Assembly: GCA_905221605.1 (NCBI GenBank)
Contig: CAJNDS010002494.1
Location: forward strand, 26,001 to 90,000
DNA length: 64,000 nucleotides
Direction of reading: 5' to 3'
From: Symbiodinium natans
Lineage: Eukaryota; Sar; Dinophyceae; Suessiales; Symbiodiniaceae
Made by a program: the position numbers and the translations under genes. Under the pieces are notes generated by a model. The model made no database searches. It was not told where the DNA came from and worked only from the letters and a program-made list of their open reading frames with translations. Below, piece after piece: positions 1,687 to 57,679 of the stretch (its first letter is position 1; each line of letters starts with the position of its first letter).

Positions 1687-3150
1687 GTTGTCGTGAAGTC
1701 AACGGGTCACGAGATGCCTCCCAGGCTCGAGGTTGCTGGGACGCAGCTGCGAGTAAGGAGCCTTAGGGTAGTAGGCTGCGCTTTAGGATTTCGGGTTTAA
1801 GGTTAAGGGTCTTTACGCTCTTTAAGATTTGCAGTAGGGTGTTTAAAGGTTGTAAGGTTCAGGGTTTTGTAGAATTTAGAGTTCAAGATTCAAGGCGGTT
1901 TGGGGCGATTCGGCTTCAGCTGATGTCGCTGAGGTGGTCAAAACCTATCTGAGTGGTGCCAAGTACCGCAAGGCAGGGCCTTTTGTGCTTCCAGCTTGCA
2001 TAAGCCCCTTAGGGGCTTCAGCCCCAAGAAACAAAGGACGTCAAGCCTGGTCTTCCCAGCTGCTTGTCCACGCCCCCAAAACCGCAGGCGCGCGATTGGT
2101 ATGGCTTTGACTTCAGCAAGTTCGAGCCCTACATTATCCCGCCGGGGCCCCGGGAGGGTTCTTGGGTTGAAGTGATCCATGATAGGGTTTAGTGTTTTGG
2201 GTTAGGGCAGGACCTGGAGGGGCTTTTGTGTTGGGTGCTTGCTGTGGGCTTCATGGGCTGCGGGGTTGAGGTCGGTTGAAGCACCCTAAGCCGTAAACCC
2301 TAAACATCTTCCGACTGCGCCGCCTTTTCCAAGGCACGAGAAGCAGAAGAAGTTTCTGTTCTGCACGGCGCGGTGCCCGGCATGCTGATGCAGCCCTGAG
2401 TCTCTGAATGTTTAGGGTTTAGGGTTTGGGGTTTAGGGTTTAGGGCTTGGGGTTTAGGGTTTAGGGTTTAGGGCTTAGGGCTTGGGGTTTAGGGTTTGGG
2501 GTTTAGGGTTTAGGGTTTAGGGCCCTGAGTCCCTGAGAGTGATCGTTCGTCATTTTGGTGCCACGCAGGTGACAGGAACGACTTTGCCCATGCAGCCCAA
2601 GAAGGCTGGCAAAACTGGTAGGTTCAAAGCACCAGCTCTCTGAATTATGCTTCCTTTCTGCCTTATTGTAGCCGAAATCCCAATATACAGGACCATGGTT
2701 CTCTGAATTATGGTTCCTTTTCTGCCGTATGGTCAGTCGGAATCCCAATATATACAGACCATAAAAACCCTAAACCCTAAACCCTAAACCCTAAACCCTG
2801 AGTGCATCGTGACTCAGTGTTTGGAGAGTCCAGGTTGAGCGGCACGTCGAAAGCAAACGCTACAAGGACCGATGTGCACCGCACTGCGACGACACGTAAG
2901 GGTTTAGGGTTTGGGGTTTGGGGTTTAGGTTTAGGGTGTAGGGTTTAGGGTTTAGGGTTTAGGGTTTAGGGTAGGATCAAGGGCCGATGAGTTTCTCTCT
3001 AACCTCTGCCTCGCCATGGTACCTTCCCGAAGAAAACGGACGAAGACTTCAGGAGCTCCTCCGGGTGAAGGAGGAGCAGACCAAGAAGAAGGCGGAGAAG
3101 CAAGAGCTGAAGAAGAAGCGCAGGCGGACCTGGGACTCATGTGTTAGGTT
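1687..3150 (+). CDS. SURF2-like protein, multi-exon gene (minimum extent)
   Basis: Conceptually joined exons resemble Surfeit locus protein 2, a small basic nucleolar/ribosome-associated protein. Exons seen: 1687-1731 (reads VVVKSTGHEMPPRLE, matching the SURF2 'TGHELP-RL' motif), 1934-1972 (VVKTYLSGAKYRK), 2088-about 2156 (ARDWYGFDFSKFEPYIIPPG, the 'FEPHIVP' motif), 2341-2367 (KQKKFLFCT), 2569-2604 (VTGTTLPMQPKK), 2834-about 2866 (VERHVESKRYK, the 'HTQGRRYQ' motif), and a Lys/Arg/Glu-rich coiled-coil exon at about 3037-3130, like the basic SURF2 tail. Donors after 1972, 2367 and 2604 are GC; after 1731 it is GT. Introns hold TTTAGGG arrays. The first exon and stop were not located. Identity is inferred from motif order, not from a search. 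Confidence 0.68.
2409..2521 (+). repeat. Interstitial telomere-like array, TTTAGGG
   Basis: About 16 units of TTTAGGG with variants (TTTGGGG, CTTAGGG, CTTGGGG), inside the intron between the 2341-2367 and 2569-2604 exons of the SURF2-like gene. Confidence 0.95.
2764..2800 (-). repeat. Interstitial telomere-like array, CCCTAAA
   Basis: Five CCCTAAA units in the next intron of the SURF2-like gene, in the opposite orientation to the array at 2409-2521. Confidence 0.95.
2898..2972 (+). repeat. Interstitial telomere-like array, TTTAGGG
   Basis: About ten degenerate then perfect TTTAGGG units in the intron before the basic coiled-coil exon of the SURF2-like gene. Confidence 0.95.
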
Positions 3151-3199
3151 CTGTTGTTGGGCAGTGCCGGATAAAACGTCCACATCATAATCGCTACTC

Positions 3200-4640
3200 A
3201 TGTCCCTTTTCCATGCCACAGTACCTCAAGCACAGGAACTGGGAAATGCTGGCAACCATCATCCACGCAATCCTTCATCAAGTCTTGCAGGCCATATATC
3301 ACGGTGGCTAGACTTCACTTGACTCTATCCTCGCCAATTCAAAGGCCGACCTTGCTCTACACGCTCCAGAGACGCCTGCTCTTGACATCTTGCGTTCGGG
3401 TTCAGGATTCAGGGTCTAGGGTTTAGGTGTAGGTTGACGATTTAAGGGTGTAGGGTTAAGAGTTGAGGGTTAGGGTTCAAGATAAAAGGGTTTCAGGTCA
3501 AAAGTCTAGAGTGTCAAATCAAGGGACTCTGCCATTTAATCGACCTTGGACTTCTTCGGCCCAAAGGCCCATAAACCTAAAACCTTCGCTCACGCCGGTC
3601 TCCAGATCCTGGCCTCCTCCCTCGAGCCGGGTTTTGGGTTTAGGGTTTCGGGTTTAAGGTGTGGGGCAAGGTTTAGGGTTTAGGGTTTCGGAGCTGCCTG
3701 CCAGGGCCCAGGCCAAAGGCAAAGTGAAGGCGAAAGGGGCGAAGGTGGGAGGGCCACATGCGCCAGTATTCACGCACCGCCCCCCCCATTGTCTCCCCCT
3801 CCCCCCTCAGCAGTTCATTCATGGTGGGTTTCGGGTTGAAGGTTTAGGGCTCAGGGTGGGGCTGCGGAGGCTCTTGGTCCCCCCCCCACTTCAAAGAAGG
3901 CTTACGGCTTGAAGATGCCGGGGATTTTGGACCCTCGCGTGCGTGTTCGTTTGTTCAGATGAGCCGCAAGGGGCTCCCTTCCAAACTCGAGCACCTCTCC
4001 AGCCCTGAACTTTCAACCAGCCGAAGCTCCACCCCGCCTTCTTCAACTTCAACCGCCTCAGCCTTCAGTTCCTCTCAACTCCGTCAGCCTCCCAAACCTA
4101 CCCCAACCTCCCGAACACCCTCCACCTTGACCTCCCCCAAACCCCCTGAAAGAGCATCCAAGAACATCAGGCCCTCAAGCCCAAGTCCACCAAAGATGCC
4201 CAAGCCTGGGCGCTCAGCCAGATTTAGGGGTTCAGGGTCGAAAGATGAATTCTACTTTGCGTAAGAGCTCCGCGTTTACACGGGGCTTAACCAAACAGAG
4301 GCTACTTGAAATCCGGCCCGAAAGTGAATGACTTGAAGCGGCCTCGCACTTTAAAGCAGTTGGGCCCCAGTGGCCCTAGTAGGGATTAATTTAATTTCAC
4401 TCATACTTGTATATACTGGGCTTTCAAGAGCAAGGCTTAGAAATTCATGCCGAGCTTAACAGTAGGCGCATTCGCAGTCTCAGCATGTTGCAGCTGCCTG
4501 AGCCCCTTGAAAGCACGGCCTATAAGCCCTCTGAAACACCTAAGCTGCTGCTGTCGGGACCTCGGTGGTGCGGGCCCGTACCCTCAACCCAGATCACCCA
4601 GGCCCAAACACACTGAGCCGGGGCTTGCAGGGCCTTGGAA
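3200..4640. other. No confident gene; sparse telomere-like units
   Basis: The stretch contains scattered single TTTAGGG motifs (3410-3480, 3640-3690, 3830-3850) and Pro/Ser/Thr-rich open frames (3959-4264) typical of low-complexity non-coding DNA. A lysine/alanine-rich frame at 3697-3750 could be a further coiled-coil exon but has no clear splice context. Nothing else was recognised. Confidence 0.5.
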
Positions 4641-4650
4641 GGGCAATGTA

Positions 4651-4709
4651 CTACTAATTGCTTAAGAACATTATTTCTTATTCTTTTGGGGTTCTTAAGC
4701 AAATAGTAG
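4651..4709. repeat. Short hairpin element, family C copy 2
   Basis: The left arm CTACTAATTGCTTAAGAAC pairs with the right arm GTTCTTAAGCAAATAGTAG around about 20 bp of AT-rich DNA. The termini match the element at 273-374, but the centre is shorter. It is followed at once by a run of about 18 C. Confidence 0.75.
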
Positions 4710-4857
4710 TGTAGGGGTTGCCCCCCCCCCCCCCCCCCCTCTCAGTCTTTTGAAGAAGGTCCCAGCACTTCGCTTGCAACTTGAGGCCGTAAGCAGCCCA
4801 GATGCCAAAGGCCAGGGTCAGAGACTATTGTGCTTTATGATAACCATATTATGCGAT

Positions 4858-4921
4858 TACCATACTACTATTTCTACAATTATGGTTTTACCATACTACT
4901 ATTTCTACAATTATGGTTTTC
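4858..4921. repeat. Tandem duplication of a 32-bp unit
   Basis: Two head-to-tail copies of an AT-rich unit containing CATACTACTATTTCTACAAT followed by TATGGTTTT. No gene is visible around it, and a short TTTAGGG run follows at 5058-5079. Confidence 0.85.
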
Positions 4922-5504
4922 ATTATCATTCTTTGTACTTGCTAGTGTCATCATGTTTTTGTGATCACGGTCAATCCTTGATATCAGAAGCAGTACGGTC
5001 ATCATTAAGGGTTGCATGATCGGTCGTGGCGCTTTTTGGGTTTTTTGGGAGTCGAAGGTTTTAGGGTTTAGGGTTTAGGGCGAAGGGCGGAGGGGCTTCC
5101 AGGCTCAGAGTTTCGGGGTGCTGCCTGCCGCTGGAGAGGCTCAGCTGACGCAGGGAAGGCCAAGAAACAGCCTGCCAGAAGCCGCTGCCCCTGGGGATGT
5201 AGGGGCATTTAGGGTTTAGGGTTGAGGGTTGGGGGTTTAGGGTTTAGGGCGTTAGGCTGTTGCAGTATTTGAAGTTGCGCACCTCGACATCACGAAAGCC
5301 AGCACTGTTGAGGCAAGCTGCTGAAACGAAAGAAGGACATGCCGCAAGGAGCGGCCTGAATTTCTCTGCTACAGTTGCTACAGCCTCCATGGGCTTCATT
5401 CATGCCCATTGCGGCCAGGCGTGATCAAGAAGACAGCGAAAAAAAGCAAGCAGGTGGGTCTGGAGAGTCTGTGAGCACCAGCACATCTGGAAACAAAGTG
5501 CAGA

Positions 5505-6085
5505 CATCAAGTGCCAGGCGTGACAGCGACGCAGCGACGCCCCCTCCATGCCCGCGTTGCTGCCAAAATCCCGCAGCTGCACGTGCACAGATGTGGCATT
5601 CATGGTTCAGCATGCAAGCTTCTAACCTCGTCAATTTCATCATGGTCTCAGCACAGCTCACGGCTTCGTGTGCAATTGCAGAAACCGTGGTGTAAGTACT
5701 GAGGGCACTGCACGGCTGAGGCTAACAATGAGCATGGAATGTGGGGACTTCTGCTCTCAAGAGCTCCAAGCTGTCGAGCCAGACTTGACTAGCATGTTCG
5801 GAAGAATTTATAAGCACCGGAAAGTCAGGTTTTGCAGGGCTCTGGCTCCCATGACGAAGTTGACGAGCAGCTAGCAGTTGGTACGCACTTCCCACCTATG
5901 ACAGACGTGTGTCGTGGCATGTGAGCTCTTGCCTAGCTAGCCGCGACATGGCCAGCATGGCGAGGGCGGAGGCCAAGCGTCCGGGGCCAATGTGGTGGTG
6001 GCCTCGGTTCAATTTTCAAACGCTTGCACCTGCAAGCTGAGCTGCCTGGAGGTTTGAAAGGTCTGATTCCTTCAACCCCCACCCC
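5505..6085 (+). repeat. Long direct repeat, copy 1, left of the ADP-ribosyltransferase gene
   Basis: This block aligns base by base, with substitutions and small indels, to about 9505-10048. Shared landmarks in order are GTGCCAGGCGTGACAGCGA, the segment around CACAGATGTG, AAGTACTGAGGGCACTGCAC, GGCTGAGGCTAACAATGAGC, GGTCAGGTTTTGCAGGGC-type sequence, and TCTTGCCTAGCTAGCCGCGA. Copies 1 and 2 have the same orientation and bracket the intronless gene at 6346-8433. It has no convincing reading frame. It could be a dispersed transposable element, an LTR-like terminus, or duplicated gene-cluster spacer. Confidence 0.8.
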
Positions 6086-6345
6086 TTAGAGCAAATTTAA
6101 GTGCATCTGCCGGACGGGGCGAGGCTGCCTGAGCTTCGGCGCCCGGCAGCTCGCACCCAGAGGCCTTCCAGGGTTGAGAAGCTTGAATTCCGCCTGGTTT
6201 GCACAGCCTGCTGTCCGCTACTGGTAGTCAGCTGAAGGTGTTGCTCCTGGTGCAGGACTCCGCTGCAGGGAGGGATTGTTTGTGTCAGTGAGAAGAGTAC
6301 ACCGCAAACCTATTGCACTGTTGTTGACGTTGTCTGACTTTGTTG

Positions 6346-8433
6346 ATGTCTGACGAGAAATTGTGCGATATTGTGGCAGCTCGAAGAGTCCTGCTTTCCT
6401 GCGCACCGTCGAGACCCTCGGCAATGCCGGCCGACGGAACTGATCAGCTCCCTTGGAGCGTCATTGTTCACAATGCCGGGTCCACAGCAGCTGAGAGCTT
6501 CGAGCAGCACATGCGCTCTGCATACAGCAAGGCCCATCTCCACAAGTGTATCTTGCGCATTTGCAGGGAAGTTGATGGTCAAGACTACATCATGAAGTCA
6601 AAGTTCAGGCGTGAAATGTTCCGGCGTGTGGAGACAGTTTTGCCTGACCAGCTTGTTCGAGAGTTCGACAGGGTCTTGCAAGAGCTTCTGCAGACACTTG
6701 AAGAGACTCTGGCGGCAGCGGTCACCACTGTCAATGGTGATGATGTTCGGATGCCTTTGCAGCAATGCCTGCAAAGGCTTCGAAGAGAGCTGAATGAAGC
6801 TGTCCAGGTAGAAGAAATGGAAAACTTTCGAAAGAATCTTGCAGCTGTGGGCATCGTATTTGTGGCGTCCTTTGGAATTGCTACTGCTGTGGGAGCAGGA
6901 GCTGGACTAGGTCCGTTTGCAGCACCGCTTGCAATTGGTGGTGCGGCAGCAGGAGGAGTCTGGCTTGGATCTCAAGCAATTTGGAGTGAAGACGACGAAA
7001 GAGCTCGCTTTGTGGATGCGCTCGTGGAGGAGATCTTGCCAACCTTGGACATTGGAAGGCTGACAAGGCGTGTGAAGAGCCTCCTGAAGAGCCACATGTC
7101 GAGCTTGGAAAAGCTTGTGCATGACGCCCCCAAGGATCCCTTACTTGAGTCGCTGTGGACTCCTGTGGATGGTGACGCGCAGGCTCCATCTCAGCCGGGA
7201 GCCTCATCCGAGCATGGCAGTGCACAGGCCGACGTTCCAGAGCAGGCTGCCAAGAAGTACATACCGTTTAGAAGTGCTGTGTGGCATGATCCAAGAATTG
7301 ACAACCCCGAGAATCAGTCTTACTTGGGCTTGCTGCGAGAGACGTATGCGGACTTGGTGTGCTCCGATGACTTTATGCATGCTGCTGAGGAGGTGAAGAA
7401 GAACCCGCTCACAGCGTTCACAATCATCACCTCCGGAGCCAAAGCTAAAGACTTGGTGCCTCTGGTTGGCAAGCTTGCCAATGTCACTGCCATTCACGTC
7501 TTCTGCAGCAACCCGGCCTACCACAAGAAGCAGCCATGGTTTTTGCAGAACTGTATGGAGAAGGGAAAGGTTGTGGACATCTACACCAATGTTGGCCAGC
7601 TTGTGAATGGTCTGAAAAGGGTGCCGGAAATGCCTCGCGTGGCATTCATCAATGCAGAGGAGGTGGCTGCATCTGTTGACGAGGCTAAGCGTGTTTATTT
7701 ACAGTCAGATGTTCAAGACTACGTTGAGCAAACATCCTTTACTGAAGCAGTTGCCTACTTGTTAAAGTTGCGGGAGAACAAGCACGGCATACGTGCTGCC
7801 AGTGATGAGGGTGTCCGATTGGCCAAGATCTTTGACCCCTCGCATGGCAAGTTCGAGGAGCTTCTCAAGGTGTACACACAGGAGGACATACACGTTTATG
7901 ATACCCTAAACTCCGCCCTGCGCGTCAAAGAGCGGACACAGGGGCTGCTCAAGCTGGCCAAGCTTGCAGAAGCCTTCCTTTTCGCAATGCAGAAGGCAGC
8001 TGTAGCGGAGCCGTCCCTGGCTTTCTCAGGAATGACTTACCGTGCAATGTGGGTTTCAGATTCCGAGGTCGCGCAGTATGAGGCCAGCAAGGACGATTTC
8101 ATCTTCTTCAGAGCATTCACCTCAACTTCCCGGGACAAGCAAAAGGCTGCAGACTTCGCAGAGCGGAGCTGGTGCAAGAAGGGCAAGCGAGGCATGAAAC
8201 TCATGATGCGCATTGATTGCTCAACTCTTGATGCAGGAGTGTCGTGTGTCCGCCCAATGAGCATCATGAAGTTTTCAGCGTTCGCGCATGAGCAGGAGGT
8301 TCTCATTCCGCTTCTTTCAGGCTTCCAGGTGGTGAGCGTGCAGCGCCGCGGCGAGTTTTGGCTGGAGGTACGCTTGAAACTGGCATTCTTGATGCCTGAT
8401 ATGACGGCAGCTTTCATCTATGCATTCCTCTGA
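6346..8433 (+). CDS. Putative ADP-ribosyltransferase (ART, R-S-E class), intronless
   Basis: A 695-codon uninterrupted frame with GC-ending codons. The first ATG is at 6346; a second possible start lies at 6424. Residues about 60-160 are helical and charged. Residues about 166-212 form a Gly/Ala-rich hydrophobic stretch long enough for one or two membrane passes. Residues about 352-395 carry the 'TIITSGAKAKDLVPLV...AIHVFCSN' module, which I recall preceding ART domains in some eukaryotic proteins. The C-terminus has the arginine-type ART signature: Arg566 (YRAMW), Ser593-Thr594-Ser595 (FTSTSRD) and Glu649-Gln650-Glu651 (AHEQEVLIP), the R-S-ExE triad expected to bind NAD and transfer ADP-ribose to protein. 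Target and location are unknown. Unlike neighbouring genes it lacks introns and nearby TTTAGGG repeats, which suggests retroposition or transfer. Confidence 0.8.
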   Translation: MSDEKLCDIVAARRVLLSCAPSRPSAMPADGTDQLPWSVIVHNAGSTAAESFEQHMRSAYSKAHLHKCILRICREVDGQDYIMKSKFRREMFRRVETVLPDQLVREFDRVLQELLQTLEETLAAAVTTVNGDDVRMPLQQCLQRLRRELNEAVQVEEMENFRKNLAAVGIVFVASFGIATAVGAGAGLGPFAAPLAIGGAAAGGVWLGSQAIWSEDDERARFVDALVEEILPTLDIGRLTRRVKSLLKSHMSSLEKLVHDAPKDPLLESLWTPVDGDAQAPSQPGASSEHGSAQADVPEQAAKKYIPFRSAVWHDPRIDNPENQSYLGLLRETYADLVCSDDFMHAAEEVKKNPLTAFTIITSGAKAKDLVPLVGKLANVTAIHVFCSNPAYHKKQPWFLQNCMEKGKVVDIYTNVGQLVNGLKRVPEMPRVAFINAEEVAASVDEAKRVYLQSDVQDYVEQTSFTEAVAYLLKLRENKHGIRAASDEGVRLAKIFDPSHGKFEELLKVYTQEDIHVYDTLNSALRVKERTQGLLKLAKLAEAFLFAMQKAAVAEPSLAFSGMTYRAMWVSDSEVAQYEASKDDFIFFRAFTSTSRDKQKAADFAERSWCKKGKRGMKLMMRIDCSTLDAGVSCVRPMSIMKFSAFAHEQEVLIPLLSGFQVVSVQRRGEFWLEVRLKLAFLMPDMTAAFIYAFL

Positions 8434-9500
8434 CGAAAGAGTGATGCCGTCGTGGTTTATCTTTTGCTTTTGACGCTCCAAAGCGATCCCTTGATCCCTT
8501 GATACAAAGCGGCGGTATGCCTGACAGACAAGCTTTTGTTAACATTGAATGCATGTATGCTGTGGTCTGATCAGTGTCTAAGCTAGTAGCGAGCGTCATC
8601 AATTCAGGAGCCAAACAGCCAGGCACATGCGCCGCAGTTTGCGACAAGGTGTGTTTGGGCGATGCTTGGTAGGCCCCATTTCGCATTCACCTTGTGGGCA
8701 CTCTGGTGTGTTTGGCTTCTCTGCAAGCCTTCTGCGTGGTGCTCTCAGAGGCAGAGCCCTGGACGGCTGGACCGCCACAGCAGCAGTGCAGCTGGCATCA
8801 GATAAAGTATCGCATCAGCCGTGCTGTTAAGGTGAAAGGTCAGCTGTGTTTGGCAATCGTGTACGGTTGGTCTGGTTGAGTTGCCATCTGCATGCACTGC
8901 AAGCCTCCATCCACCCCCCCCCAATCTTGTGCGAAGGAGCGGCGTGCCCTCAGGGCTTTCGTGTTGAAGGTGGGCCTCATTGAAGCAGAGGTGGGTGCAG
9001 TAGGAAAGGATAGACTAGCGAGTGGGCACGTGTCGCAACTGGCTTTTGCATCTTAGTTGGGAGACTTACCCGGGCTCAAGCTACTGAGGATCCATTTTCT
9101 GGAGGCCATAGATTCGGTGACATCCGCTTTTTTCTGAGGAGCGTAAGCATCGCTGCAGCATCACTCTGGAGCAAATAGTAAAGCAAGTCCGCGCATTTCC
9201 CCACAAGGGCGCTTCGGGTTCTGGTGAAACTGCCTCCAAAGCGCCAGCTTTGCAGCAGGCGTCCCAAAGCAAAGTGCAGATGTCCAGCAACAGACATTAC
9301 AGCGACGCCCCTCCCATGCGTGCTGGCGCCAAAGAAGCCGCAGGGCCCCTCCGGGGGCTATGCTCGCCGTGTGAGAGAGAAGGAGAGAGAAGTTCCACCG
9401 GCGTCGGTGAAAATACCCAACAGAGGCCACAAGGGCACTGGGCGCGGGCATACTTCCAGCAGCATGGGCTGCTTTAGCAAGCAGTGTTTGCTGCGACACT
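8434..9500. other. Spacer downstream of the ART gene, no gene seen
   Basis: Mixed-composition DNA with no telomere-like repeats and only short, incompatible reading frames. The 9240-9330 part (CAAAGCAAAGTGCAGATGTC, then ACAGCGACGCCCC) partly repeats sequence found again at about 5497-5550, so it looks like an additional fragment of the flanking repeat. No poly(A) tail or spliced-leader relic was recognised after the ART stop codon. Confidence 0.5.
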
Positions 9501-9504
9501 AGCG

Positions 9505-10048
9505 CCAGGCGTGACAGCGATGCCCCCTCCATGCGCGTTGCTGCCAAACTCCCGCAGCTGTGCGTGCACAGATGTGTGGCGTTCATGGTTCGTCATGCAA
9601 GCTTTTAGCTTCGTCAACTTCGTCAGCACAGCGCACGGCTTCGTGTGCAGTTACAGGAACCGTGGTGGAAGTACTGAGGGCACTGCACGGCTGAGGCTAA
9701 CAATGAGCATGGGATGTGGGGACTTCAACTCTCAAGAGAGTGGCTTTAAGCTGCCTAGCCCGACTGGACCGACATGATGACATGATCAAAGGGATCCAAA
9801 AGCACCGGAAGGTCAGGTTTTGCAGGGCCCTGGCTCTCATGAGGAAGATGACTACAAGCAAGCAGCTGGCACGCACTTCCCGACGTGTGTAATCGCATGC
9901 AGTGCACTGCGGTGGCATGTGATCTCTTGCCTAGCTAGCCGCGACATGTCTCGCATGGCTACGGCGGAGGCCAATGGTCCGGGACCATGTGGTGGTGACC
10001 CGCAAGCTGCGCGGTTTGACAGGGTGGATTCCTTAAAGCCACTTGCCT
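9505..10048 (+). repeat. Long direct repeat, copy 2, right of the ART gene
   Basis: Same-orientation partner of 5505-6085, about 4.0 kb downstream from start to start. It keeps the same landmark order and ends in the conserved TCTTGCCTAGCTAGCCGCGA region and a GATTCCTT motif. The divergence (many substitutions, small indels) shows the duplication is not very recent. Confidence 0.8.
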
Positions 10049-10049
10049 A

Positions 10050-10151
10050 ATTAGTAGTAGAGTAGGCAACCTTTAACCTTTTAGGGGTGGTAGAATCCTT
10101 ATATTGCCCAAAGGTTAACCTTTAATTCCGCCAGGTTACTGGACAACTAAG
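10050..10151. repeat. Hairpin element, family A copy 1
   Basis: A 102-bp element beginning TTAGTAGTAGAGTAGG and ending ACAACTAAG. Inside, AACCTTTAACCTTTT pairs with AAAGGTTAACCTTT. Near-identical elements lie at 20917-21019 and 30006-30108. The termini (CTTAGT/ACTAAG in the other copies) are inverted complements. It is MITE-like and non-coding. Confidence 0.8.
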
Positions 10152-10750
10152 TTTGTCTCCCAAGGGCTTGAGCTTGGCTTGATTCCACAGTGGCCAGGAG
10201 CATGTTTAGCATCGGAGCGATTGCTCAAGCTTTGAAGGCCTTCAATCCTTCTTGATTCTTGACCCTGACCAAACCACCCAAAATTATGTCAAGATGGTCC
10301 CAGAAGTCAGGCAGATTCCGCCTGCCCTTCCTATTGTTCCACTCATGGCTGTGTCTCAAATGCCATGCAAGTCAGCTTTATCCAAAGTGCTACTTCAAGA
10401 GGAAATCAGGAAGGAAGGAGAAGGAGGAAGAGGGATCCCCCGAAAGAAAGACGCAGAGCGAGCTGGAAAGAAGGAAGTTTGGTCTTCTTCTCATATGCAG
10501 CATGGCTTGGTGGCGTGTTATATGTGAAATGCGGCGGTAAACTGCCGCAAATCGGACAGTCCTCCAAAGTTTGATGACAGTTCTTGTTATAAGAGCCTGG
10601 ACTGTGGCCTACTGTGGCCTCTGCGTTCATCTTGCATTCCTTAGGAATGCCTTGTGACTGGAAATTATGCGCAGCAAAGCGACCGTACCGACATGGTACC
10701 AAACAGTGTGCAATGCATTGCGGCGTTGCTTGCCCGCATGTGCAGGTGAC
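10152..10750. other. Spacer, no gene recognised
   Basis: Telomere-repeat-free DNA with a purine-rich patch (10400-10480). The overlapping short frames here have no exon-like boundaries or recognisable domains. Confidence 0.5.
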
Positions 10751-11080
10751 TGACCACACGGCACAGCGCCAGGTGACCACCCCGAGGGTAGCAATGGGTA
10801 GTGACTAAAAGCAGTGCACGGCTGAGACTGACCATGACCATGAGATGTGGGGATTTCCGCTCTCAGGAGATTGGCTCCAAGCTGCCTAGCCAAACTGGAC
10901 CCGCATGTTTAGAGGGACCCATAAGCACCAGACAGTCAGATTTTGCTGGATAAGCAACACAGCCACAGGCGGTACAAGGCATTGGCAGAAAAAGAATCTA
11001 TCAGTTGCCCTGCCGCGAGACGGGAGATGGCCAGCATGGCTCGGGCGGAGGCCTTGAATGTAGGCCCCAAACCCCTTGGG
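10750..11080 (+). repeat. Long direct repeat, copy 3 (partial, diverged)
   Basis: The segment around GCAGTGCACGGCTGAG, ATGTGGGGATTTCCGCTCTC, AAGCTGCCTAGCCAAACTGG and ACGGGAGATGGCCAGCATGG follows the same order as 5505-6085 and 9505-10048, with larger gaps. It marks the right edge of the telomere-repeat-poor island. Confidence 0.7.
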
Positions 11081-11638
11081 CACGATAACTCCTTGAAAGC
11101 TCCCTACCCCCGTCTCAACATCGGAGCTAAGCGCACGCACCATCGGGAAACTCGGAGGACTCGGAGAAGTCAGACTTCTGGGAGCAAGGCTACCTGAGCT
11201 TCAGGGGCTTGCTAGCACCGGAGGCGCCGTGGGGTGGTTCAGGTTTTGGGGTTTGGGGGTTAAATCAACTAGGGCAGATATACATAAATGTATCTATGGT
11301 TGAAAGGGATGTTTGGGAGTTTGGGGTATACAGAGTTTCTTTCGGTTGGGACCTGCTTGGAATCATAGATCAGCACGGACATGGTCCTGAGTTCGCCCTT
11401 GGCCCCCGAATCCGACGTGAAGCCTCGTTGGCCGCGAGGCTCCGGCGATCCGAGCGCGCATGGACTTGATGATGAGCCTCGTGCGGAGAGAAGACACCGC
11501 AGGGTCTCGCTTGCTGATAGATGTCTGCACTTTAGGAGAGGCACACGTAGATTGTATAGATTGGCGTTCCGTCGTGGTGCCCCAAGAGACCCCCCGGCCC
11601 AGCTGCCCAGCAGATCTCAGCTGCCTTGCAGCACAGGA

Positions 11639-11922
11639 AGGATGCACCTGCTGCAACGGCGGACTGGAATGCCGTGGATGCTGGCGGGGCTTCTTTCGTC
11701 CTGGCCGTGGACGACAAGGGCCAGACAATCCCTGGGCGCATTCTCAAGGCCGCCTATAAGCCATGAAGGCCCCATGAGAAGCTGTGAAGGTGTGGCGGAT
11801 GTGGAGGTCTCAGAAGTCGGGAAGGTGAAGTTTCCCCGAACCCTATAAACCCTGAACCCTAAGAGGTCCAAGCTGCGGCCCTCGCCTCCAGCGCCGTGCT
11901 GGAGGCCCACGAAGCCTCCCTT
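11639..11922 (+). CDS. Two coding exons, probably upstream part of the dioxygenase gene
   Basis: Exon 1 (about 11639-11748) reads KDAPAATADWNAVDAGG then ASFVLAVDDKGQTIPGRILK and ends at AAG followed by GC. Exon 2 (about 11866-11922) follows a GAG acceptor and reads VQAAALASSAVLEAHEAS. Both have GC-rich third positions and clean splice contexts, and the intervening DNA holds CCCTGAACCCTAA-type repeats. A further candidate exon at 12075-12100 reads PAVVAKVKELLG. They could encode the N-terminal part of the PhyH-family protein that follows; the join is unproven. Confidence 0.5.
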
Positions 11923-12479
11923 TGAGCTGCGCGCGTGGGAGCTTTACCCTAAACCCTAAACCCAACCCTAACCCCCAAACAGTTGGAGGAATTTGGGGGA
12001 TTCAGGGGATGAAGAGGATTTGAGCAAGTAATGAGGGGCCCGCAGCGCGCTTTCCTGCAAGGTCTTCCGGTCCCCTGCCGTGGTCGCAAAGGTTAAAGAG
12101 CTTCTTGGGTCAAAGAGTTTCTACTGTAGCTGCCTCCTTCCCCGATTCGCTCTGCTAAAAATCGGCAAGCTGCCTCTTATGTATTTTTCCTGATTCCAGG
12201 CCATCAGAGGCATCCCAAGGGGGTTGGCACAGGAGGCTTCGGGTTTCGGTTTGTCTTGCTTGTAAGTGAAGGCTCTGGGTTTGATGGCGGCCGTCCGATT
12301 TCTCAAGCGCTGTGCTATTGTTAATTTGGCCTTGACTTGGCCTGCGTGCCCCATGCACGCATTAGTTCTATGCTGTCCACCCCCATCCCTTGATCTGTCA
12401 ACTTTTTTTGTTTCGAATCGCATGTGCTTCTTTCTTTCTTGCCTTGTTCATCTTACACATCTTCCAACAAGGCGTGAGT

Positions 12480-12506
12480 GACCGGGGGGGGGGGGGGGGG
12501 GGGGGG
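12480..12506. repeat. G homopolymer tract
   Basis: About 24 G, interrupted once by C near its end, just before a candidate exon of the dioxygenase gene. Confidence 0.9.
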
Positions 12507-12525
12507 CGGGGCGATTCTGCAAGAA

Positions 12526-13596
12526 AGAATTGGAACCAGTACGAACCTGGACTGATGCCCGTGGACATCTTCAAAGCTCTTCCAGTTTGAAAGATGTTCA
12601 CAGTTTCTGCCCGTACTTTAAGTGTGTGTGTGTGTGTGTGTGTGTTTGGTTGCTTACCTTCCCTTCGTGCATGCTTCTTGACCTGACTGAGGCTGTACAG
12701 CTTCTTGGGTCACGATGTCCCCGAGCACGTGGATGTGTTTGGGACGAAATTCTTCCCCATGTGGCCTGGTGGGGTTTCTGTTGATTGGCACCAAGATTGC
12801 CACTACTTTGGCACGGCTTCGTCGAGGATAATATCCTGCGGAGTCTACCTCGAAGAGACAGATGAGGAGAAATTTTGGGAAACTCGATGACCACATGTCA
12901 GAACTGCAAAGGATCATGGTACTCAGAAGATATGTTAGAATCTGAACCCGCAGCCAAATCTGAAGCCCTTGACACGCACCCATTGATAATGAGCCTCCGT
13001 TCGCAGGGCTACATTCTGCTAGAGTTGGGAGGGCCGGTTTCATTTGGGGAGGAGAACGGTTGCCTCCAAGTCGTGCCGGGGTCCCACACCTCGGACTTCG
13101 AGCACAAACCTGGTAGCGGCTTGCACGCGCAGGGCGAGTGGGTCACACCAGGCTGGGTGGTTCATGATGGCTTTCGCATCCTACCAGGGTTCAAGGGTGA
13201 CTTTGCCTCAGAATCTAAACCCCACCAAACCCGACAAGAAACCGTACGAAGCCTGAACCAAACTTAACTTACTGTTGGTTAGCAGAAAATGGGGAATGAG
13301 GATGAATGAGGTACCCTATATAATCCCGTAAAGGGTATATGTATATGTATATATATATATATATAGGGCCCTAAGTCCCTCGTTCCCTGCTAGCCAACAA
13401 TAAGTTAAAACTCAACCCTGCAGATACCTCTGCAACCGTGGTGGACATCGTGGTCCCGGCGGGGTCGGTAGTGCTCTTCAACTCCCGGCTGCTCCACGCA
13501 GCAAGGCAGAACAAGCACGCCGCCCGCACGCGCTACTCTCTGCGCCTTGGCTGGAGGCGGTCGAAGTATGAAGTAGGGGGCCTTTCGAGAGTTTAA
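12526..13596 (+). CDS. Phytanoyl-CoA dioxygenase (PhyH)-family protein, multi-exon
   Basis: A predicted Fe(II)/2-oxoglutarate-dependent dioxygenase. Exons: about 12526-12588 (reads NWNQYEPGLMPVDIFKALP), 12692-about 12863 (includes GHDVPEHVDVFGTKFFPMWP and VDWHQDCHYFG), about 13052-13140 (ENGCLQVVPGSHTSDFEH) and about 13425-13593 (VVDIVVPAGSVVLFNSRLLH then AARQNKHAARTRYSLRLGW), with stop TAA at 13594. The family metal triad is visible: His and Asp of WHQD and the distal His of RLLHAA; the Arg of RTRYSL fits 2-oxoglutarate binding. The 12.86-13.05 intron has no GT donor: GAGGAGAA occurs at both ends (12864-12871 and 13049-13056), implying a GA-AG intron. The last intron carries a hairpin element. 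The substrate cannot be told from sequence. Confidence 0.85.
12624..12645. repeat. (TG)n microsatellite
   Basis: About 11 GT units in the intron before the WHQD exon of the PhyH-family gene. Confidence 0.9.
13266..13406. repeat. Hairpin element with long inverted termini in the PhyH-gene intron
   Basis: The left arm AACTTACTGTTGGTTAGCAG followed by a GGGGAATGAGG segment pairs with the right arm, which has CCTCGTTCCC then TGCTAGCCAACAATAAGTT. The centre contains TACCCTATATAATCCC and a (TA)n run. It is 141 bp with no coding capacity, so MITE-like. The GGGAATGAGG motif is shared with the arms of the element at 38790-38965. Confidence 0.8.
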
Positions 13597-18100: not shown

Positions 18101-21100
18101 CGCATCTTACTAGCGTTGAACCCTGGGAGCCACGCCTTGCAGTCTCAAGGGACTCAAGGGGGAACCCTTGTACGGGACCTTAGGGGTTTTTGGGGACTAT
18201 TTAGGGGCTACTTAGGTACATAGGGACTATGTAAGGTATATATGGGGCTATGTAGGGGAATAAGATAACCGGCCCCTCCTTATACCCCTTGACAGTCCCA
18301 AAAAGGAACCATGCTGTACTACGCGCACGCACTGTCAGAGAACTTGCGCTCAACCCCTAAAATGCTCCAAAAGAGACCCCGGACTTCTAGAAAAAGCGCC
18401 CCCTCCCAGGATCTTCAGGCCAGTCTACAGAAGGACAGGAACACTCCGAAACTGACGGCTTCAGTAGGAAAGGGTAAGGGCATGAGGCATCGTAGGAAGG
18501 TTTGGGGCTTAAGGTTCAAGGGCGACTTGGGGGTTCATATGGATCTAGTTCGTCCCCGCGGAGCTCTGTACCCTATAACTCATGACTACATCATATGGCG
18601 GTCCTTGTTTCAAGAGGTTGGGTATTATTCGGATTCAAGGGCTTCAGGGTTGAGGATCGATTTCAGATGCCTTGGTGATGTTTATGGCTTCGCAGGGTGC
18701 GGAGCCATGAGCTGGGTTAGCACTGTCCCTCGCCATGGTACTGTCACCCGTATTCCTCTCATGAAGCCCCAAGCCCTAAACCCTGAAGCCTAGTTAGTGG
18801 AGATGGTTTCACCCTACGTTCCAGGAGCTTGCGGACAAGGCCGCCGGCTACAAGGCGGCGGGCCTTTTGTCGATATAGGGTGTGGTGGGTGGGTTGTAGG
18901 GGGTTTAGGGGCTTAGATTCTTGTGCAACCTACCTCGGTTGAGGTTCTGCGGAGGGTTTCATGGCTAGATTTTAGAGGTTTGGGGCTGGGTCACCTAGTC
19001 TTGTAGGTTGTCATGAGAAAGCCCCCAGAATTTCAAAATTCGGTGAGCAGCCGAAAGACAAGGTTTAGGAGGGTTTAGGGCGCGGAGCTCTCGTGGCACC
19101 TCGGGGCGCCTAGCACCATGCACACACCTCCACGAAATGAAACACCGCAACCCCCTAAACTTAGGGTTTAGGGTTTAGGGTTTAGGGTTTAGGGTTTAGG
19201 GTGCCTAGACATATCACCCTAAGTCTCCCACCCTAAAACCCCAAAATGGTCCAAGCCCGGAAGCCGGGAAGGAGAAGGAGAAGGCCTACTGGAATTGGTT
19301 GGCCGAAGCCAAGCAGGCTGGGCTGACTCTTGCGGAGTGGTTGAGGGTTTTGGGGACCCCAAACCCTGAACCCTGAGCTCTCTTTTGCAGAGTGTTTGAG
19401 AGTTTTGGGGACCCCAAACCCTGAATCCTGAACTTTAAGGGTGTTGAAGGAAACCCTGAACCCTGAACTCTAAACTCTTGAGCTTTGTAGGGGGTCCAGC
19501 TACAAGTCCCGAATAATTTAGGCCGTCAGGCCCCCGAGTGCCCTTCTGACGACAAGTGTCGCCTCGCCCGCTCACATCTCCGCACCGGCGCAAGCGCAAT
19601 CACAGCGCAGGTCGTGTTTTTAGCTTTGCAACCTCGATGCCTTTGCGGTGGCTGATGGATGGGAATGATGGGAATGATGGGAATATGACTCATGAGGCTG
19701 GCAGTCCTGCGAGTGGTCTGAAAGAAGCTACGCCCGCATTGGGCGGCCGGAGCTTGAAGGACCCAGGTGTAGCAGCACCCCCTGGGTGGCCCATGGAGTC
19801 AGGGAACAGCAGCAACAGCAACACGCCCACGCCCACCCATACAGAGGTTACAGGCTATGGCTCCTCGAGGAGTGAGGCAACAACGGTGGCCAGCAGGCAG
19901 GAGGGGGGTCATGATGGGACATCGCAGGCGAGCTATCCATTCTTGCCAGGTGTTGTGCAAGAAGTTCCGTGCAGATCCTTGCCAAAACGTTTTGGAAAGG
20001 CACAGGCTTTACACGGGATGGTGCATTCGCTCCAAGTCAAGCAAAGCGTTTGCAGCAAGCTCGCACCATCTTCGTCAAAGCTTTGCAGACTTGCCAGAGG
20101 TAACGAGGGGCTGCCGACGATCGATGCTGCCAGTCTGGCTGGATTGAAGAAGATTTTGGAACAGGTAAAAGCACACTTTTCAAGCTTGTCCATTTCCCCC
20201 ACGCCTCCTGTGCTGTTTCGGCACAACAACTTCTACACACCCTGTAGCCTCGAGGTTTGTCTGGGTCAGAAAGTGGAGTTGTGGCCGCTGGTATCTCACC
20301 CACCAGGCTGTTGCTTCGTGGTTGTACCGAAGCTTCCGCTTGGACTCGTTCTCGACGAGCGATCAGGCTTGGTGCATGGCAGGCCGCGCGAGCCAACCGC
20401 AGGGCAAGTGAAGTACCACGTGGTTGCCCAGATCCCGGCGCGATCTCCACCGAAGGCACATGTTGCATTTATCAAGCTCACGGTCATCGAGGGGTGGCCA
20501 GCTAGTGACGATGAGGGCTCACAGGCTGGAGGTGCTTCATCTTGTGATTAGTGTGCAGGGACAGATGGGACAGACCGCCCGAACACTCTGAATTGCCAGT
20601 TCAACAGCAAAACGTCAATCAGCTGAGGCACCTCCTGCTTTGCGGTCGGTCGTTTCCCCTTTCCATCTGGGAGCGTGGCAGACTTTGACCCCGCTGTACC
20701 TTTAAAGCCGCGGACCTGGGCTTCTCAATTCAAGCAAAAAAGGCTGCCCAGGTCCTCTGTCTTGACTTCTCGTCTCTCTGGCCTGAAGAATAAACACGAG
20801 CCAGGCGTCGCCGTGTCCGCTTGTTGTGATGCAGATCAACCACCACAACTGCTCGGCATCAAGCCTGCAGCGGCGTGGCGTCTGTAGAATATGCTTAGAG
20901 TCTGTTGCAGCAATGACTTAGTAGTAGAGTAGGTCTCCTTTAACCTTTTCGGGGTATTATATTCCCTACATAATCCCAAAGGTTCACCTTGAGTTCCCCG
21001 AGGATTCTGGACAGCTAAGATGATTGTTGCCACCCGGAAGAGTTTGAGCCGCGCAGTGGCGGTGCATTGTGCACCCCAGTGTGGGAACGCAGAGACTCGT

Positions 21101-24100
21101 TTCCGGCCTGTTTGGGGTTTAGGGTTTAGGGTTCAGCATCTCAAGTCCAAGCATACACTAGTCAAGCAATTACTCCAGGAAAATACCCACCCGCCCAAAG
21201 AATCCCACAACATTAAGAAAATATTTCACTTATAGAACGACCTTGCCCGTCAAAAAAATGACCTTGCCCAGTAAAAGAATGACCTTGCCCAGTAAAAAAA
21301 TGACCTTGCCCAGTAAAAAAAGTGACCTTGCCCAGTAAAACAATGACCTTGCCCAATAAAAAGATGACCTTGCCCAATAAAAAATGACCTTGCCCAGTAA
21401 CAAAATGACCTTGCCCAGTGAAAAAATGACCTTGCCCAATAAAAAATGACCTTGCCCGGTAAAAAATGACCTTGCCCAGTAACAAAATGACCTTGCCCAG
21501 TGAAAGAATGACCTTGCCCAATAAAAAATGACCTTGCCCAGTGCAAAAATGACCTTGCCCAGTAAAAAAAGGACCTTGCCCAGTAAAAAAAGACCTTGCC
21601 CAGTAACTCATAAACATTTAAATTATATATGAAAGAGAGGTTTAGGGTTTAGGGTTTAGGTTTAGGGGTGATTAGGGCTCGGTCGTTGCTCTTGAGCTCT
21701 TTGTCCGTTGCAAGCATACAAGTATTCACAACCTGCACGAATATGAATCGAGTCTTTGCCTTGGAGCCACAGTGGGTGACAAGGGGGTGACATTGTGTGG
21801 AACCGTGTCACAGCTGATGATGAGCCGCAATGCCTCCATAGTCGCGTTCGCCAGCACCGGCCGTCGCGCGGGAGGATGCAACAGGGGCTGTGTCCCGTTT
21901 CACGGCGAGTTGCTGTTGTGATCCAAGCCCAAAGATTTCTGAGCTTGGCAAGTCTGTTGTCTTTCAGCTTGGGTGTGTGAGAGGTGCCTGGAACACCCTG
22001 AGCCCTAAACCCTACACCCATTGATCAGAGTCTGAACTTTAAAGGGCCAAAGGTTGGAAGAAAAGGACTCCATTCATGTCCTGTGCCTTCGCTGCCTCAA
22101 GCCACCCGAATGACGTTGAAAGGCGCAAAGAGATACCTGACATCGTCTTTCAGATTCGAGCATGGCCACATATGCCCACGGATGCAAGCGGTATTGCCAT
22201 GGCTTATTTTGCTCCTACCTCTGAGAGCGTATGTAAGATGAGGAAGTGGTCGGTGCATTGGGCGTCCGCTGTGGCAGAGCACTGGCTCGATTCTGGCTTC
22301 TTGCGCACATGAGTTCTTGCGAATGTGACTCGCATCGCATCATACGAATGCGCCTGAGTCTTGTTTGGGAGTCGCACCATTGTGGGTGTGAGAGCTGTGG
22401 GTCTTTGTGACGTTTATGGAAGCACGTGCTGTTCACGACACTATAAGTGGTGAGCCGGAAAATGCCGTGCCTGAGCTTTCAGTGTTCACTTCGGAATTTC
22501 TGAAACCTTGGTGCACGATGGCCTAAGCTACTACAGCATGCTGCTACCGACCTGTGCACCCACAACGTCTCATCCTAAACCCGAAACCCTAAACCCGTAG
22601 CCCTAAACCCGAAACCCGCAACCCTAAACCCTAAACCACCCTAACCCTAAACCCGAAAACCTAAACCCGAAACCCTAAACCCTCGAACCCCCCCCTCGAA
22701 AACTTCGACATGTCTGGGAGGCGGTCGCTTCGCGGCCCGGCGTGGCGCCGCTCCACAAGTTCGAGGGCCGAAGCGTTGAGGACCACGAGTTCCGGGTTTA
22801 GGATTTAGGGTTTAGGGTTTAGGGTTTAGGGTTTAGGGTTTAGGTCTTCGTGAGTCCTGAACCCTAAGTCTAAGTGCCCTAAGTCCCTCAAACCTGAAGC
22901 TTCATTGGAGTTTAAAACGTGGCGGGGAATCGGAGATCCGAGAGCCCGGGCAGGAGCTCGTGGCGGAGAAGAAGGCAGCCTTGAACAAGGAGGCGCGCTG
23001 AAGGTGGAGGGGGGCTTGTGGCTTGTCTAGTAGAGGAGCCTTAATACTTAGAATAGGGTTTTGGGGGGTTATTATGGTATATTTATATAGCGACCATCAG
23101 GCAATACTATTCGTAATTGTTTCGGGTGTTTTCATGAGGGCTAAAGCTTGTTGGGGGTTTAGGGTAGGCCTTGGTAGGGCATAGCATCAGCCAAGACCAG
23201 ACCTGCGTTCCTGAGGCGGGGGTATGCATCGCTCACGGCAGTTGCCAACAGCATGAGTTCATTTCGGGCAATCTTTTGGTGCACAACTGGGCGTAAAAGG
23301 AAGATGTTAGCTGGAATAGGGACTACAAGGTAAGGCCTAAACAATCAGGAACTGCTCTGTCCTCATTGTTGGCGGCCTGCAGGGCTTAAGGCCACTCCTG
23401 AACCCTGTTGCGGTTTGATTTACAGGGTTCCTATAGAGCCTTCATCGGGCTTTTACAGGGCTTGCAGCGTTTATATGGGGTCTTTATATGGCTCGGGTTT
23501 ATATAGAGCGTTTATGGGGCGTTTACAGGGCTTTATAGGGTGTCATCAGGTTTTAACGAAGTTTATAGAGGACTAGCAGGGGCCTTTCCATGCCCCTGAA
23601 CCCCACAGCTGTCTGGGAGGTCACTGCCCGGGAGCAGGAATACAAGACGTGGCTGGCCCCTTGGCAGCCGCAGATTCGACCGTACAACCTTTCACAAAGA
23701 ACCCTAAACCCTAAACCCTAAACCACCCCCCCCAGTCACGAAGTGCCGATGCAGCTCTGCCTTGAGGCCGATGTCTATTCGAAGATCTCTTGGGCCCCTT
23801 TACAACACCACACGTCCCCCAAAATTGGGAGCCCTAAGCCCTAAGCCCTAAACCCTAAACCCTAACCCCTAAGCCCTAAACCCTAAACCCTAAACCCTAA
23901 CCCTAAACCCTAAACCCTAAACCCTAAACCCCAAACAGCCGGAAAAGTTCAACATCCAAGGAGTCCGTGAGCAAGCCGAAGTTCAAGCTGCCATCCCAAG
24001 CTGTCAACACGCCCGCGCCGGCAGCCCACGATGGGGGGGGGGCAAGGGGGGGGGGGGGTTTAGGGTTTAAGGTTTAGGGTTTAGGGTTTAGGGTTTAGGG

Positions 24101-27467: not shown

Positions 27468-30400
27468 ATGCTGTGCCTTTGCTTGTCCTTGCTCGGCTTG
27501 GCGGCTGCCGTGCCCCGCGTGGCGGTGGTAGGCGCCATGTGGGCATAGCAGGAACCCCTCAAACAAAAGTCAGAACCGTGTGGAAGACAACCCCAAGACG
27601 TATGAAAAAATTGAGACCATTGTACTTAAGCCCTTCAAAGCCCCGAGTGATTCTCGAAGGATGGAGTAGCCTGCACGCTAAACCCTAAACCCTAAACCCT
27701 CCTACATTCCCTTCAGGCGCTGGCATCAACGGAGGCTCGGCAGTCCACTACCTCCGCGAGCTGCTGGGGAAGGGCATCGACATCACAGTGTACGAGGCCA
27801 GGTTGAGGGAGGTTCGGGTGCTTAGGGCATTGGGGGTTTCGGGGTTTAGGGTTTGGGGTTTCGGGTTTAGGGTGCGCAGTCACAGTGTAGTCAGACACCT
27901 TGGAAGCCTGCTGGAGTTCACCTTGGGGCAGCTTAAAGGCAGGGGGCCCATGGATGTGGCAGGCCAACAGCGAGCCGGGCGGTCGAACGTTGACAAGGAC
28001 TCCAAGTGTCCAGGGTTTTAGGGTTTAGGGTTTGGAGTTGCAAAAGGGTTTAGGGTTAAGGGTTTAGGGTTTAGTTTGAGAGGGAGGGGGGGGGGCTTGC
28101 AGGAATGTGTTCCATCTCTGCTTTGGGGGTGAAGATGGTCAAGAGCATTGGGCTTCGACCCCGGCTTTCTTGCACGAGTACCCCATACCTGCATCCGCTA
28201 CCTAAATCCTAAACCTGCTGAGAGAGGGACCCTGCCGTTTCGGGTTTAGGGGGTTGGGTTTAGAGTTACTATAAACAACTAAAAACCTAAGCCTGGTGAG
28301 CCCTGTATGAACAAGAAAGAGGAGCTTTGCCAATGTCACCGTGGACGTGGGGGGCACGGCGATCTATTCCAGGAACAGATATGTCTCAGGTTGCTTGGAG
28401 GCATTGCGGTTTAGTGCTTAGGGTTTTTTGGGTTGAGGGCTTGCAGTCTTATAGTATGGGGCTTGGGCTCAAAACCCCAAGGCCCAAAGCCTAAATATCG
28501 CTGGGTTTCACTTCGCCGCAACCGCGACTGCTGGCAATTCCCTTTTGTTGCTAAGGCCGCCCCCCAACCCGAAACCCCAAAACCCATCCTTGCCCGGTGC
28601 CCTGACACACTAACAGCCTGAAATTGCCTGAAGCCCAGAACCCAAACGTCCTGGACTCCTGGACCCTTCTCACCCTCACACCCTAACACCCTGAACAAGT
28701 TTGAAACCCCAAGCCCTGCGCCCTAAACCCTAAACCTAAACAACATGTTGTTGATTACCCGAAGCCATGCCGCCCTAAACCCAAAGCCCTAAACCCTAAA
28801 CCCCCGCTCTCATCTCCGAGGTTTCGCCAAGTCTTTCGGGCTGTCGCCCCAGACAGGGGACGAGGCTTGGCTTAGGGTGTTAGGGTTGTTACGGTGGTGT
28901 TAGGGGAGGGTGTCAGGCGTGAGGGTAAAGTGTCAGGAGTTTATTCGGGGCGTGAGGGTAAAGTGTCCTGAGGTGTCAGGAGTTTATTCGGGATACTCGA
29001 GGAACCCCCTGTATCATAGCCAGTCAGTGGAATACAGCTTCAGGAGCACCCCAAGAGCCTCATAAAGCTCTCCAAGACCGCCCCAAGTGCGCAAACGTGA
29101 GGGTCCACCTCCCCCTCCCCACAGATACTGCACGCAATTAAGGGCTGGGGCAGTTCTTCTCATCCGACCTGTATGCCCCAACTTCCGAGAGCTTCCCCTG
29201 CTCGTCGACAGCCGAGGATGGTGTGAACTCGGACATTGGCATCTGGGATGGCCAGAAGTTTCGCATCCAGGCCGGGTTTTCGGGTTTAGGATTGTCTGTT
29301 TCCCTGGTTTCAGAATCTGGCTCTGAAAACCCTGTCCTCGAAACAGAGAGTGCGTGAGTGAAAGGCCCTTCCTGCACGTGTCAAACCTATCTAAAGCTGC
29401 AAACTCTATACATCTCAGCATTGACCTCTCCAAACCTGTAAACTCTACAAATCTCGACCGCCGACCCTAAACCCTAAACCCTAAACCCTAAACCCTAAAC
29501 CCTAAACCGCCCTATGAGCTGCCAGTCGTAGGTTGATACCGACAGCAGCCTCGGCCTGGGCGCGAAACTTCTCTTCCGCACCTGGCCGTCATCTGGGTTG
29601 TCTGCCGTTTAGAGTTGGGGGTTTTCGAAAATAAGGGACCCCCAATATAGACCCCAAATAGTAGGAGTCCCTTTTCATAAGGACCCCAGAAAGGTACCCC
29701 CTAATTTCGGAAACCCCCAGTTGGGTCCGAAACTGTAGGCACCTGAGTGCCGTCTGACATGTCCGACCCACGGAATGTAAAGCTGCAGGATACGGGCTGT
29801 CTCCTCTTCACGTGCTTCCCGCGGTCCGCAGCGCTGTGGACGGCTTCGACCGGATCTATGACCTTCAGGAGCGGCAGCAGAGCTTTGAGAGCCCGGCAGA
29901 GCTTTTAGATGCCCTGGGCGTTTTCAACCTGACCCAAACGTCCGCCTACGACTACTTTGCAGGCCGTGGCGGCTTGGCCTCTTTAGAAGGGAGCGCTCAG
30001 TGCTTCTTAGTAGTAGAGTAGGTAACCTTTAACCTTTTTGGGGTGTTATGTTCCCTACATAGTCCCAAAGGTTAACCTTGAGTTCCCCGAGGATGCTGCA
30101 CAACTAAGGCCTCTGTATCCCTGTAGGAGATGTCTTGAGCATGGCCCAGGTGTGGACGCCAAGTTTGTGCGGGAGATGGTGGATGGAGCCTCCCGGTGCA
30201 ACTACAACCAGCCAGGTGCCTTCCCTGATAACGATGCAACAAGAGGGGCAGCAGTAATAGCAAGAACCTGAGTACTACGACTATATGATTATTGATGATG
30301 ATGATGACGACGACGAGGAGCAGTAGCTACTCAGTAGCTATCATAGTCGTAATCGTCTTACAATAGGCATAATCGTCAATATGGAGAAGAATATACCTGA

Positions 30401-53950: not shown

Positions 53951-53977
53951 TGGCTTTGCTCTCTGCCTGACTAACTT

Positions 53978-56900: not shown

Positions 56901-57180
56901 TTTAAGGGTTTTAAGGTTTTTGAGGATTTTAAGGTTAAGGATTTTAAGGAAAAGCCTTAAAACCCTTAAAATCCTTAAAGCCCTTAACGTTTTTGGAAAA
57001 TCCCTTTCCGAAAACTTTAAGGGTTTTAAGGGTTTTAAGGATTTTCAGGGCGCCGGGCCACCTTTTAAAATCTTTAAAATCCTTAAAACCTTTAAAATCC
57101 TTAAAAAAAGTCTTACAATCTTTAAAATCCTTAAAGCGTTTGGAAAATCACTTTCCCAAAACTTTAAGGATTGTAAGGAC
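53978..57180. repeat. Complex satellite, about 225-252 bp unit, 12 or more copies
   Basis: Each unit has AT-rich palindromic filler (AAGGATTTTAAGG, CCTTTAAAATCCTTAAA), the landmark GTTTTTGGAAAATCCATTTCC, and a GC-rich block GGGGTCCCGGAGGCCCAGG that starts at 54277, 54520, 54745, 54979, 55212, 55464, 55699, 55932, 56166, 56311, 56537 and 56781. Spacing is 225-252 bp except one 145-bp truncated unit. A diverged relic block lies at 57491. Both strands show long open frames rich in Lys, Leu, Ile and Phe because the unit is made of short inverted motifs; I do not call them genes. Confidence 0.95.
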
Positions 57181-57207
57181 TTTTTAAAGTGATGGGCCTC
57201 CAGAAAG

Positions 57208-57301
57208 GCGCGGCTCGATTTGGCCAAATTTTGCCGGGCAGGCTCCGGGCAAAATTTGGCCCGGAGCCTGTCCGGCAAAATTTGGCCAAATCGAGCCGCG
57301 C
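57208..57301. repeat. 94-bp near-perfect palindrome
   Basis: GCGCGGCTCGATTTGGCCAA at the left end is mirrored by TTGGCCAAATCGAGCCGCGC at the right end. The inner CAGGCTCCGGGC pairs with GCCCGGAGCCTG around an 8-bp loop. It sits inside the AT-rich satellite but has quite different GC-rich composition. Confidence 0.95.
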
Positions 57302-57332
57302 ATTTCTCATCGCATACGAAGAGCAACCCGAT

Positions 57333-57388
57333 TTGGCCAAATTTTGCCCGGAGCCTGCCCGGCAAAATTTGGCCAAATCGAGCCGCGA
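57333..57388. repeat. Second, shorter copy of the GGCCAAATTTTGCC palindrome
   Basis: CGATTTGGCCAAATTTTGCC and GGCAAAATTTGGCCAAATCG flank CGGAGCCTGCC. It is the same sequence family as the 94-bp palindrome 32 bp upstream, with one inner arm missing. Confidence 0.9.
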
Positions 57389-57679
57389 CCTTGTGGAGGC
57401 CCGAAATTATTTAACTTCAAAATACTTAACATCCTTAAAGTTTTTGGAAAATATCTTTCCAAAAAATTTATCGATTTTAAAGATTTTAAAGGGGTCCTAG
57501 AGGCCCAGGGGCACCGGGCCACCTTTGAAAATCTTTTAAAATCCTTAAAACCTTGAAAATCCTTAAAATCCTTAAAGTTTTTGGAAAACTTTAAGGGTTT
57601 TTAAGGAATTTAAGGAATCCAAAAGATTTAAAAAAGAGCCGCCCAAAGAAGTTTAATCATTTAATTTAGGAATTTAAGG

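Follow-up and report, generated by a model that had tools for sequence, protein, structure and literature searches.

Among described arginine-type ADP-ribosyltransferases (ARTs), the ecto-ARTs are secreted and glycosylphosphatidylinositol (GPI)-anchored. Arginine ADP-ribosylation seems hardly to have been described in algae: among the papers listed by a literature search, no title or abstract opening had a dinoflagellate arginine ART as its topic, and the search returned no paper joining 'receiver domain', 'arginine ADP-ribosyltransferase' and 'fusion'. A 64,000-nucleotide stretch of Symbiodinium natans (assembly GCA_905221605.1, contig CAJNDS010002494.1, positions 26,001 to 90,000, forward strand; referred to as the window, and numbered from its first base) carries a long open reading frame (ORF) at 6346–8433 on the forward strand. 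With a probability of roughly 0.55, this ORF is read here as a native gene, single-copy in the searches made, for an intracellular, membrane-associated mono-ADP-ribosyltransferase of the arginine type (R-S-ExE), with an uncharacterised three-module architecture, and unbroken because its family is intron-poor.

The coding sequence comprises 695 codons and a stop (ATG at 6346, TGA ending at 8433). The longest stop-free run in the window is 701 codons, whereas in 40 simulated 64-kb Markov sequences it averaged 209 and never exceeded 286, so that the single intact frame reported in the initial annotation stands far above chance. GC content of the gene (53.1%) is inside the range of the adjacent 2-kb blocks. 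A codon-score scan of the window gave 158.9 for the ORF versus 32.2 for a low-complexity runner-up, the scan having been trained on the ORF itself and being biased towards it. The window had earlier been described as one of heavily split genes; the scan agrees insofar as nothing else in it was comparable to the ORF, and tiny exons in every other gene were not established.

Three protein searches produced the relatives P0002 and P0006 (ENA), P0003 (EukProt, with a transcript-assembly name), P0004, P0005, P0007 and P0008 (Effrenium voratum), from a EukProt transcript assembly and environmental contigs. P0002 and P0006 each lie on a 98,329-base contig, and therefore probably on the same one. Identity to the window protein was 19–48% over the N-terminal bundle (4 relatives), 21–64% over the receiver-like module (5 relatives) and 23–74% over the ART domain (6 relatives), and by sequence comparison the three-module plan is conserved in relatives. 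Since similarity to P0002 begins at residue 22, M27 (ATG at 6424, forward strand) may be the true start. The stop codon appears authentic, because the hydrophobic C-terminal tail (residues 682–695, 8389–8430, forward strand), with the pattern DxxAAFxYAF[LI], is kept in P0003, P0004, P0005 and P0006.

The ART domain occupies residues 508–681 (7867–8388, forward strand). PF01129 matched residues 508–670 at 25.8 bits (curated cut-off 22.3), and a fold search with the predicted structure, itself of ART fold, matched solved ARTs through residue 681. In a hidden Markov model alignment to Vis, the R, S and ExE of the window protein were in register with those of solved ARTs. Both the Pfam comparison and the structure prediction, which the initial annotation had proposed as checks, thus agree with its assignment of an arginine-type ART with an R-S-ExE motif, and its residue numbers are correct: R566 at 8041–8043, S593, the first Ser of the STS motif, at 8122–8124, and E649-Q650-E651 at 8290–8298 (E649 at 8290–8292, E651 at 8296–8298), all on the forward strand. 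A library of viral structures yielded 42 hits at E ≤ 0.001, many of them named as phage or giant-virus ARTs; they were read as reflecting the common ART fold.

Conservation of these residues bears on whether the protein is a pseudo-enzyme, in which the ART fold would be retained for binding instead of catalysis. S593 is kept in six of seven aligned ART domains, being replaced by Ala in P0005, and the window protein, P0003 and P0006 have YRA in place of the YRG or FRG of the other aligned ARTs, both of which would fit a loss of catalysis; R566, S595 and both Glu of the ExE motif, however, are each kept in 7/7, and we consider a pseudo-enzyme improbable.

The middle of the protein, which the initial annotation had set apart as a separate module, can now be given a fold. 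Residues 306–432 (7261–7641, forward strand) are confidently predicted by the model to fold like a receiver, as a CheY-like alpha/beta module. The phosphate-accepting aspartate is lacking: with the site at the end of strand 3 placed by the strand limits of the model, no Asp or Glu occurs in residues 355–368, and T/S-S stands at the expected acceptor site in all six sequences having the module. Response_reg was not among the Pfam matches at E ≤ 10 for the module alone, and DUF6861 matched weakly (E 0.027 for P0003, 0.33 for the window part). Rotifer and ciliate proteins may be related to this module; no search returned a protein so labelled.

The N-terminal helical bundle (residues 37–259, 6454–7122, forward strand) was predicted in two AlphaFold2 models. 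It contains the Gly/Ala-rich hydrophobic segment pointed out in the initial annotation (residues 165–212, 6838–6981, forward strand), a candidate membrane-inserting loop with a hydropathy peak of 2.18 (19 residues from 165) and low model confidence in residues 174–212. On these sequence properties, membrane linkage of the protein is plausible. A Foldseek search with the bundle alone gave no match at E ≤ 0.001 (best 0.045); dynamin stalks occupied the upper part of the fold list, with scores of the kind that bundles reach through their arrangement. The LeoBC profile matched three of five family members, and it also matched a reversed piece of the window protein (E 9.6e-4), with no match to a reversed piece of P0005. 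Dynamin kinship is accordingly not claimed, the LeoBC match not being above the reversed control, and only a resemblance is retained. A dynamin GTPase domain is not present, the 695 residues being filled by bundle, receiver-like module and ART.

The same bundle would have to serve entry or pore formation through its hydrophobic stretch if the protein were a secreted or host-directed algal effector. Helix–hydrophobic loop–helix proteins do include pore formers, which appeared low in the fold list of the bundle, and most of the top matches to solved ARTs are to secreted bacterial enzymes; yet solved ARTs are mostly bacterial anyway, so the match ranking says little on location. The window protein has no hydrophobic N-terminal segment able to act as a signal peptide, a feature of ecto-ARTs: judged by hydropathy, no 19-residue window above 1.4 was present near the N-terminus. 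A secreted effector is therefore held to be very unlikely, and an intracellular, membrane-associated protein is preferred.

For copy number, the host assembly (759 Mb, 2,543 contigs) was searched and one copy of the gene was found, so that at the level of sequence the gene is single-copy in the searches made. At least six other host loci (L002–L007) scored over the ART cut-off; the window gene itself was not among the matches listed. Their matched parts (106–156 of 222 positions) sit in stop-free frames of 235–971 aa, which indicate an uninterrupted ART part and are not proof of intron-free genes; the frame at L005 extends into simple repeat. At one of these loci the open frame, counted from the first start codon, spans 943 aa, and L006 and L007 appear to be near copies. 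Outside the host, P0008 (235 aa, 45.1 bits) is a small dinoflagellate ART whose C-terminal hydrophobic stretch (peak 2.32) may serve as a tail anchor. Searches of prokaryote genomes, viral contigs, phages and plasmids confirmed no relative at the sensitivity of the tools used.

The unbroken frame had been attributed in the initial annotation to retroposition, a mobile element or lateral transfer. This attribution found no support, as no leader relict above background, long A/T run, parent copy or prokaryotic, viral, phage or plasmid relative was found. The gene looks like a native nuclear dinoflagellate gene and an ordinary genome resident, and recent arrival is neither needed nor supported. 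Across some 510 of the codons it shares with the window gene, P0002, the nearest genomic relative, has an open frame; its homology to the window protein ends at residue 529 and P0006 resumes at 548, so this relative probably carries one intron missing from the window gene, judging from the two sequences. With a single intron in the relative, the family is poor in introns in at least one species besides the host, and the window gene would be unbroken for that reason and not through recent arrival.

The same break is what most favours a retrogene, that is, a spliced mRNA copied back into the genome with loss of its introns, possibly in an old and decayed event, because the probable single intron has no counterpart in the window gene. 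Retrogenes are reported as abundant in dinoflagellates (PMC12014239, PMC6050394). The 21-base dinoflagellate spliced leader was present in 205 exact copies in the host assembly (104 forward, 101 reverse; reversed-pattern control 0), which marks the host as a dinoflagellate, and no copy with three or fewer mismatches was found in the window. Upstream of the gene (5346–6424), the best candidate for a leader relict had 6/15 mismatches, not above the background of 126 window stretches, which gave a best of 4–7, and no run of eight or more A or T was found in 5301–10500; such relicts do decay, however. Nor was a second, intron-bearing parent copy found in the host assembly, a weak point against retroposition since few retrogenes pair with parents (only 6.4–9.8% in two species, according to PMC6050394). 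In PMC7245778, single-exon genes are put at 24–26% in two Polarella isolates and at less than 12% in Symbiodiniaceae. Taken together, a retrogene origin is judged doubtful, and an intron-poor native family is preferred.

The flanks were analysed for traces of mobility. A 0.5-kb direct repeat lies on both sides of the gene (5510–6003 and 9501–10000, both forward strand; 79% identical over 519 columns), and a search of the 759-Mb assembly returned no place other than these two; a partial third copy in the window (10811–11053, forward strand; 10811–10949 and 11015–11053, 77% and 85% identity) was not listed by that search, so partial copies can be missed. The 1,067 bases 3' of the stop codon occur once in the assembly. 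The gene could on these grounds have been carried in by an old insertion with the repeats at its ends, and insertion between the copies is possible; the identity of 79% would make the event old, and the partial third copy fits plain local duplication, which best explains the repeats. Nine flanking ORFs (89–141 aa) had no Pfam match at E ≤ 1, with no transposase or reverse transcriptase recognised, and tblastn of the family against 3000–6300 and 10000–13500 revealed no second ART remnant (best E 0.15). We regard insertion cargo as a marginal explanation.

Several observations weigh against a conserved, active, membrane-associated enzyme from an intron-poor family. P0005, besides its Ala for S593, has an ART score of 20.1 bits, below the cut-off of 22.3, and P0007 lacks both the Pfam ART match and the bundle. 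In P0003 the receiver-like module is missing its initial strand and helix, so that the module may be dispensable unless the P0003 assembly is faulty. P0004 shows a weak hydropathy peak (1.51), and the full-length AlphaFold2 model, built from 8 sequences, has a mean pLDDT of 71 and a pTM of 0.57, with low confidence in the hydrophobic stretch. Finally, the nearest relative seems to carry one intron with no counterpart in the window gene.

If the preferred reading holds, the bundle and its Gly/Ala-rich stretch would anchor the protein on an inner membrane, the receiver-like module would bind a partner or ligand and gate or recruit the enzyme without phosphorylation, and the ART, by analogy with its family, would move ADP-ribose from NAD+ onto an arginine of a protein at the membrane. 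A more specific proposal, which we offer tentatively and think unlikely as a whole, is a eukaryote-specific ART class whose dynamin-like membrane stalk, devoid of a GTPase, is coupled to a phosphorylation-independent, receiver-type sensor that turns the ART on at the membrane, as a dinoflagellate switch for intracellular signalling or defence. Should the enzyme be active, dinoflagellates would possess a membrane-placed, NAD-dependent switch, and the coupling of a receiver-like fold to an ART would add a novel mode of regulation for such enzymes.

Elsewhere in the window, no Rfam match was obtained. Of 10 short segments scanned with Pfam, one exon-like segment of 47 aa (29821–29961) matched Prenylcys_lyase (E 7.1e-5, 22.4 bits, cut-off 27), and 31101–31223, without a Pfam match, resembles a later exon by eye. 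The ORF at 19556–20551 matched He_PIG below cut-off (17.3 versus 24 bits), and the short segments 39099–39173 and 43885–43968 gave weak EF-hand matches (E 0.035 and 0.2). The telomere-type unit TTTAGGG forms 65 interstitial arrays across the window, on both strands, some adjoining exon-like segments (for example 39060–39096 beside the segment at 39099); a 6.7-kb array-free stretch around the gene was set aside as too weak for use (P about 0.05 if the 65 arrays were placed at random). An AT-rich satellite (GC near 30–37%), in which a 234-base unit is tandemly repeated and also occurs in inverted copies, fills 53970–57600, tandem arrays with 40-base and 21-base spacing lie at 58716–59946 and 21239–21606, respectively, and a dispersed repeat of ~102 bases occurs at 10051–10151, 20917–21019 and 30006–30108 (79–90% mutual identity).

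Compared with known systems, the window protein shares a family likeness with the ART2.2-type mammalian ARTs (PF01129), but is without their N-terminal hydrophobic signal segment and carries two further modules, the bundle and the receiver-like one, that are missing from the solved ART2.2 chain. With Vis, the NAD(+)--arginine ART of Vibrio splendidus, it has the ART part alone in common, no whole-protein relative having been found in bacteria. Its bundle resembles the stalks of the dynamin superfamily (MxB, MxA, SynDLP, Drp1) and LeoA/LeoBC in helix arrangement, and its middle module is alike in fold to the response-regulator receiver domains of the PorX and CheY type, but without their phosphate-accepting Asp. 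The kind of enzyme is thus already known, whereas the three-module architecture is new.
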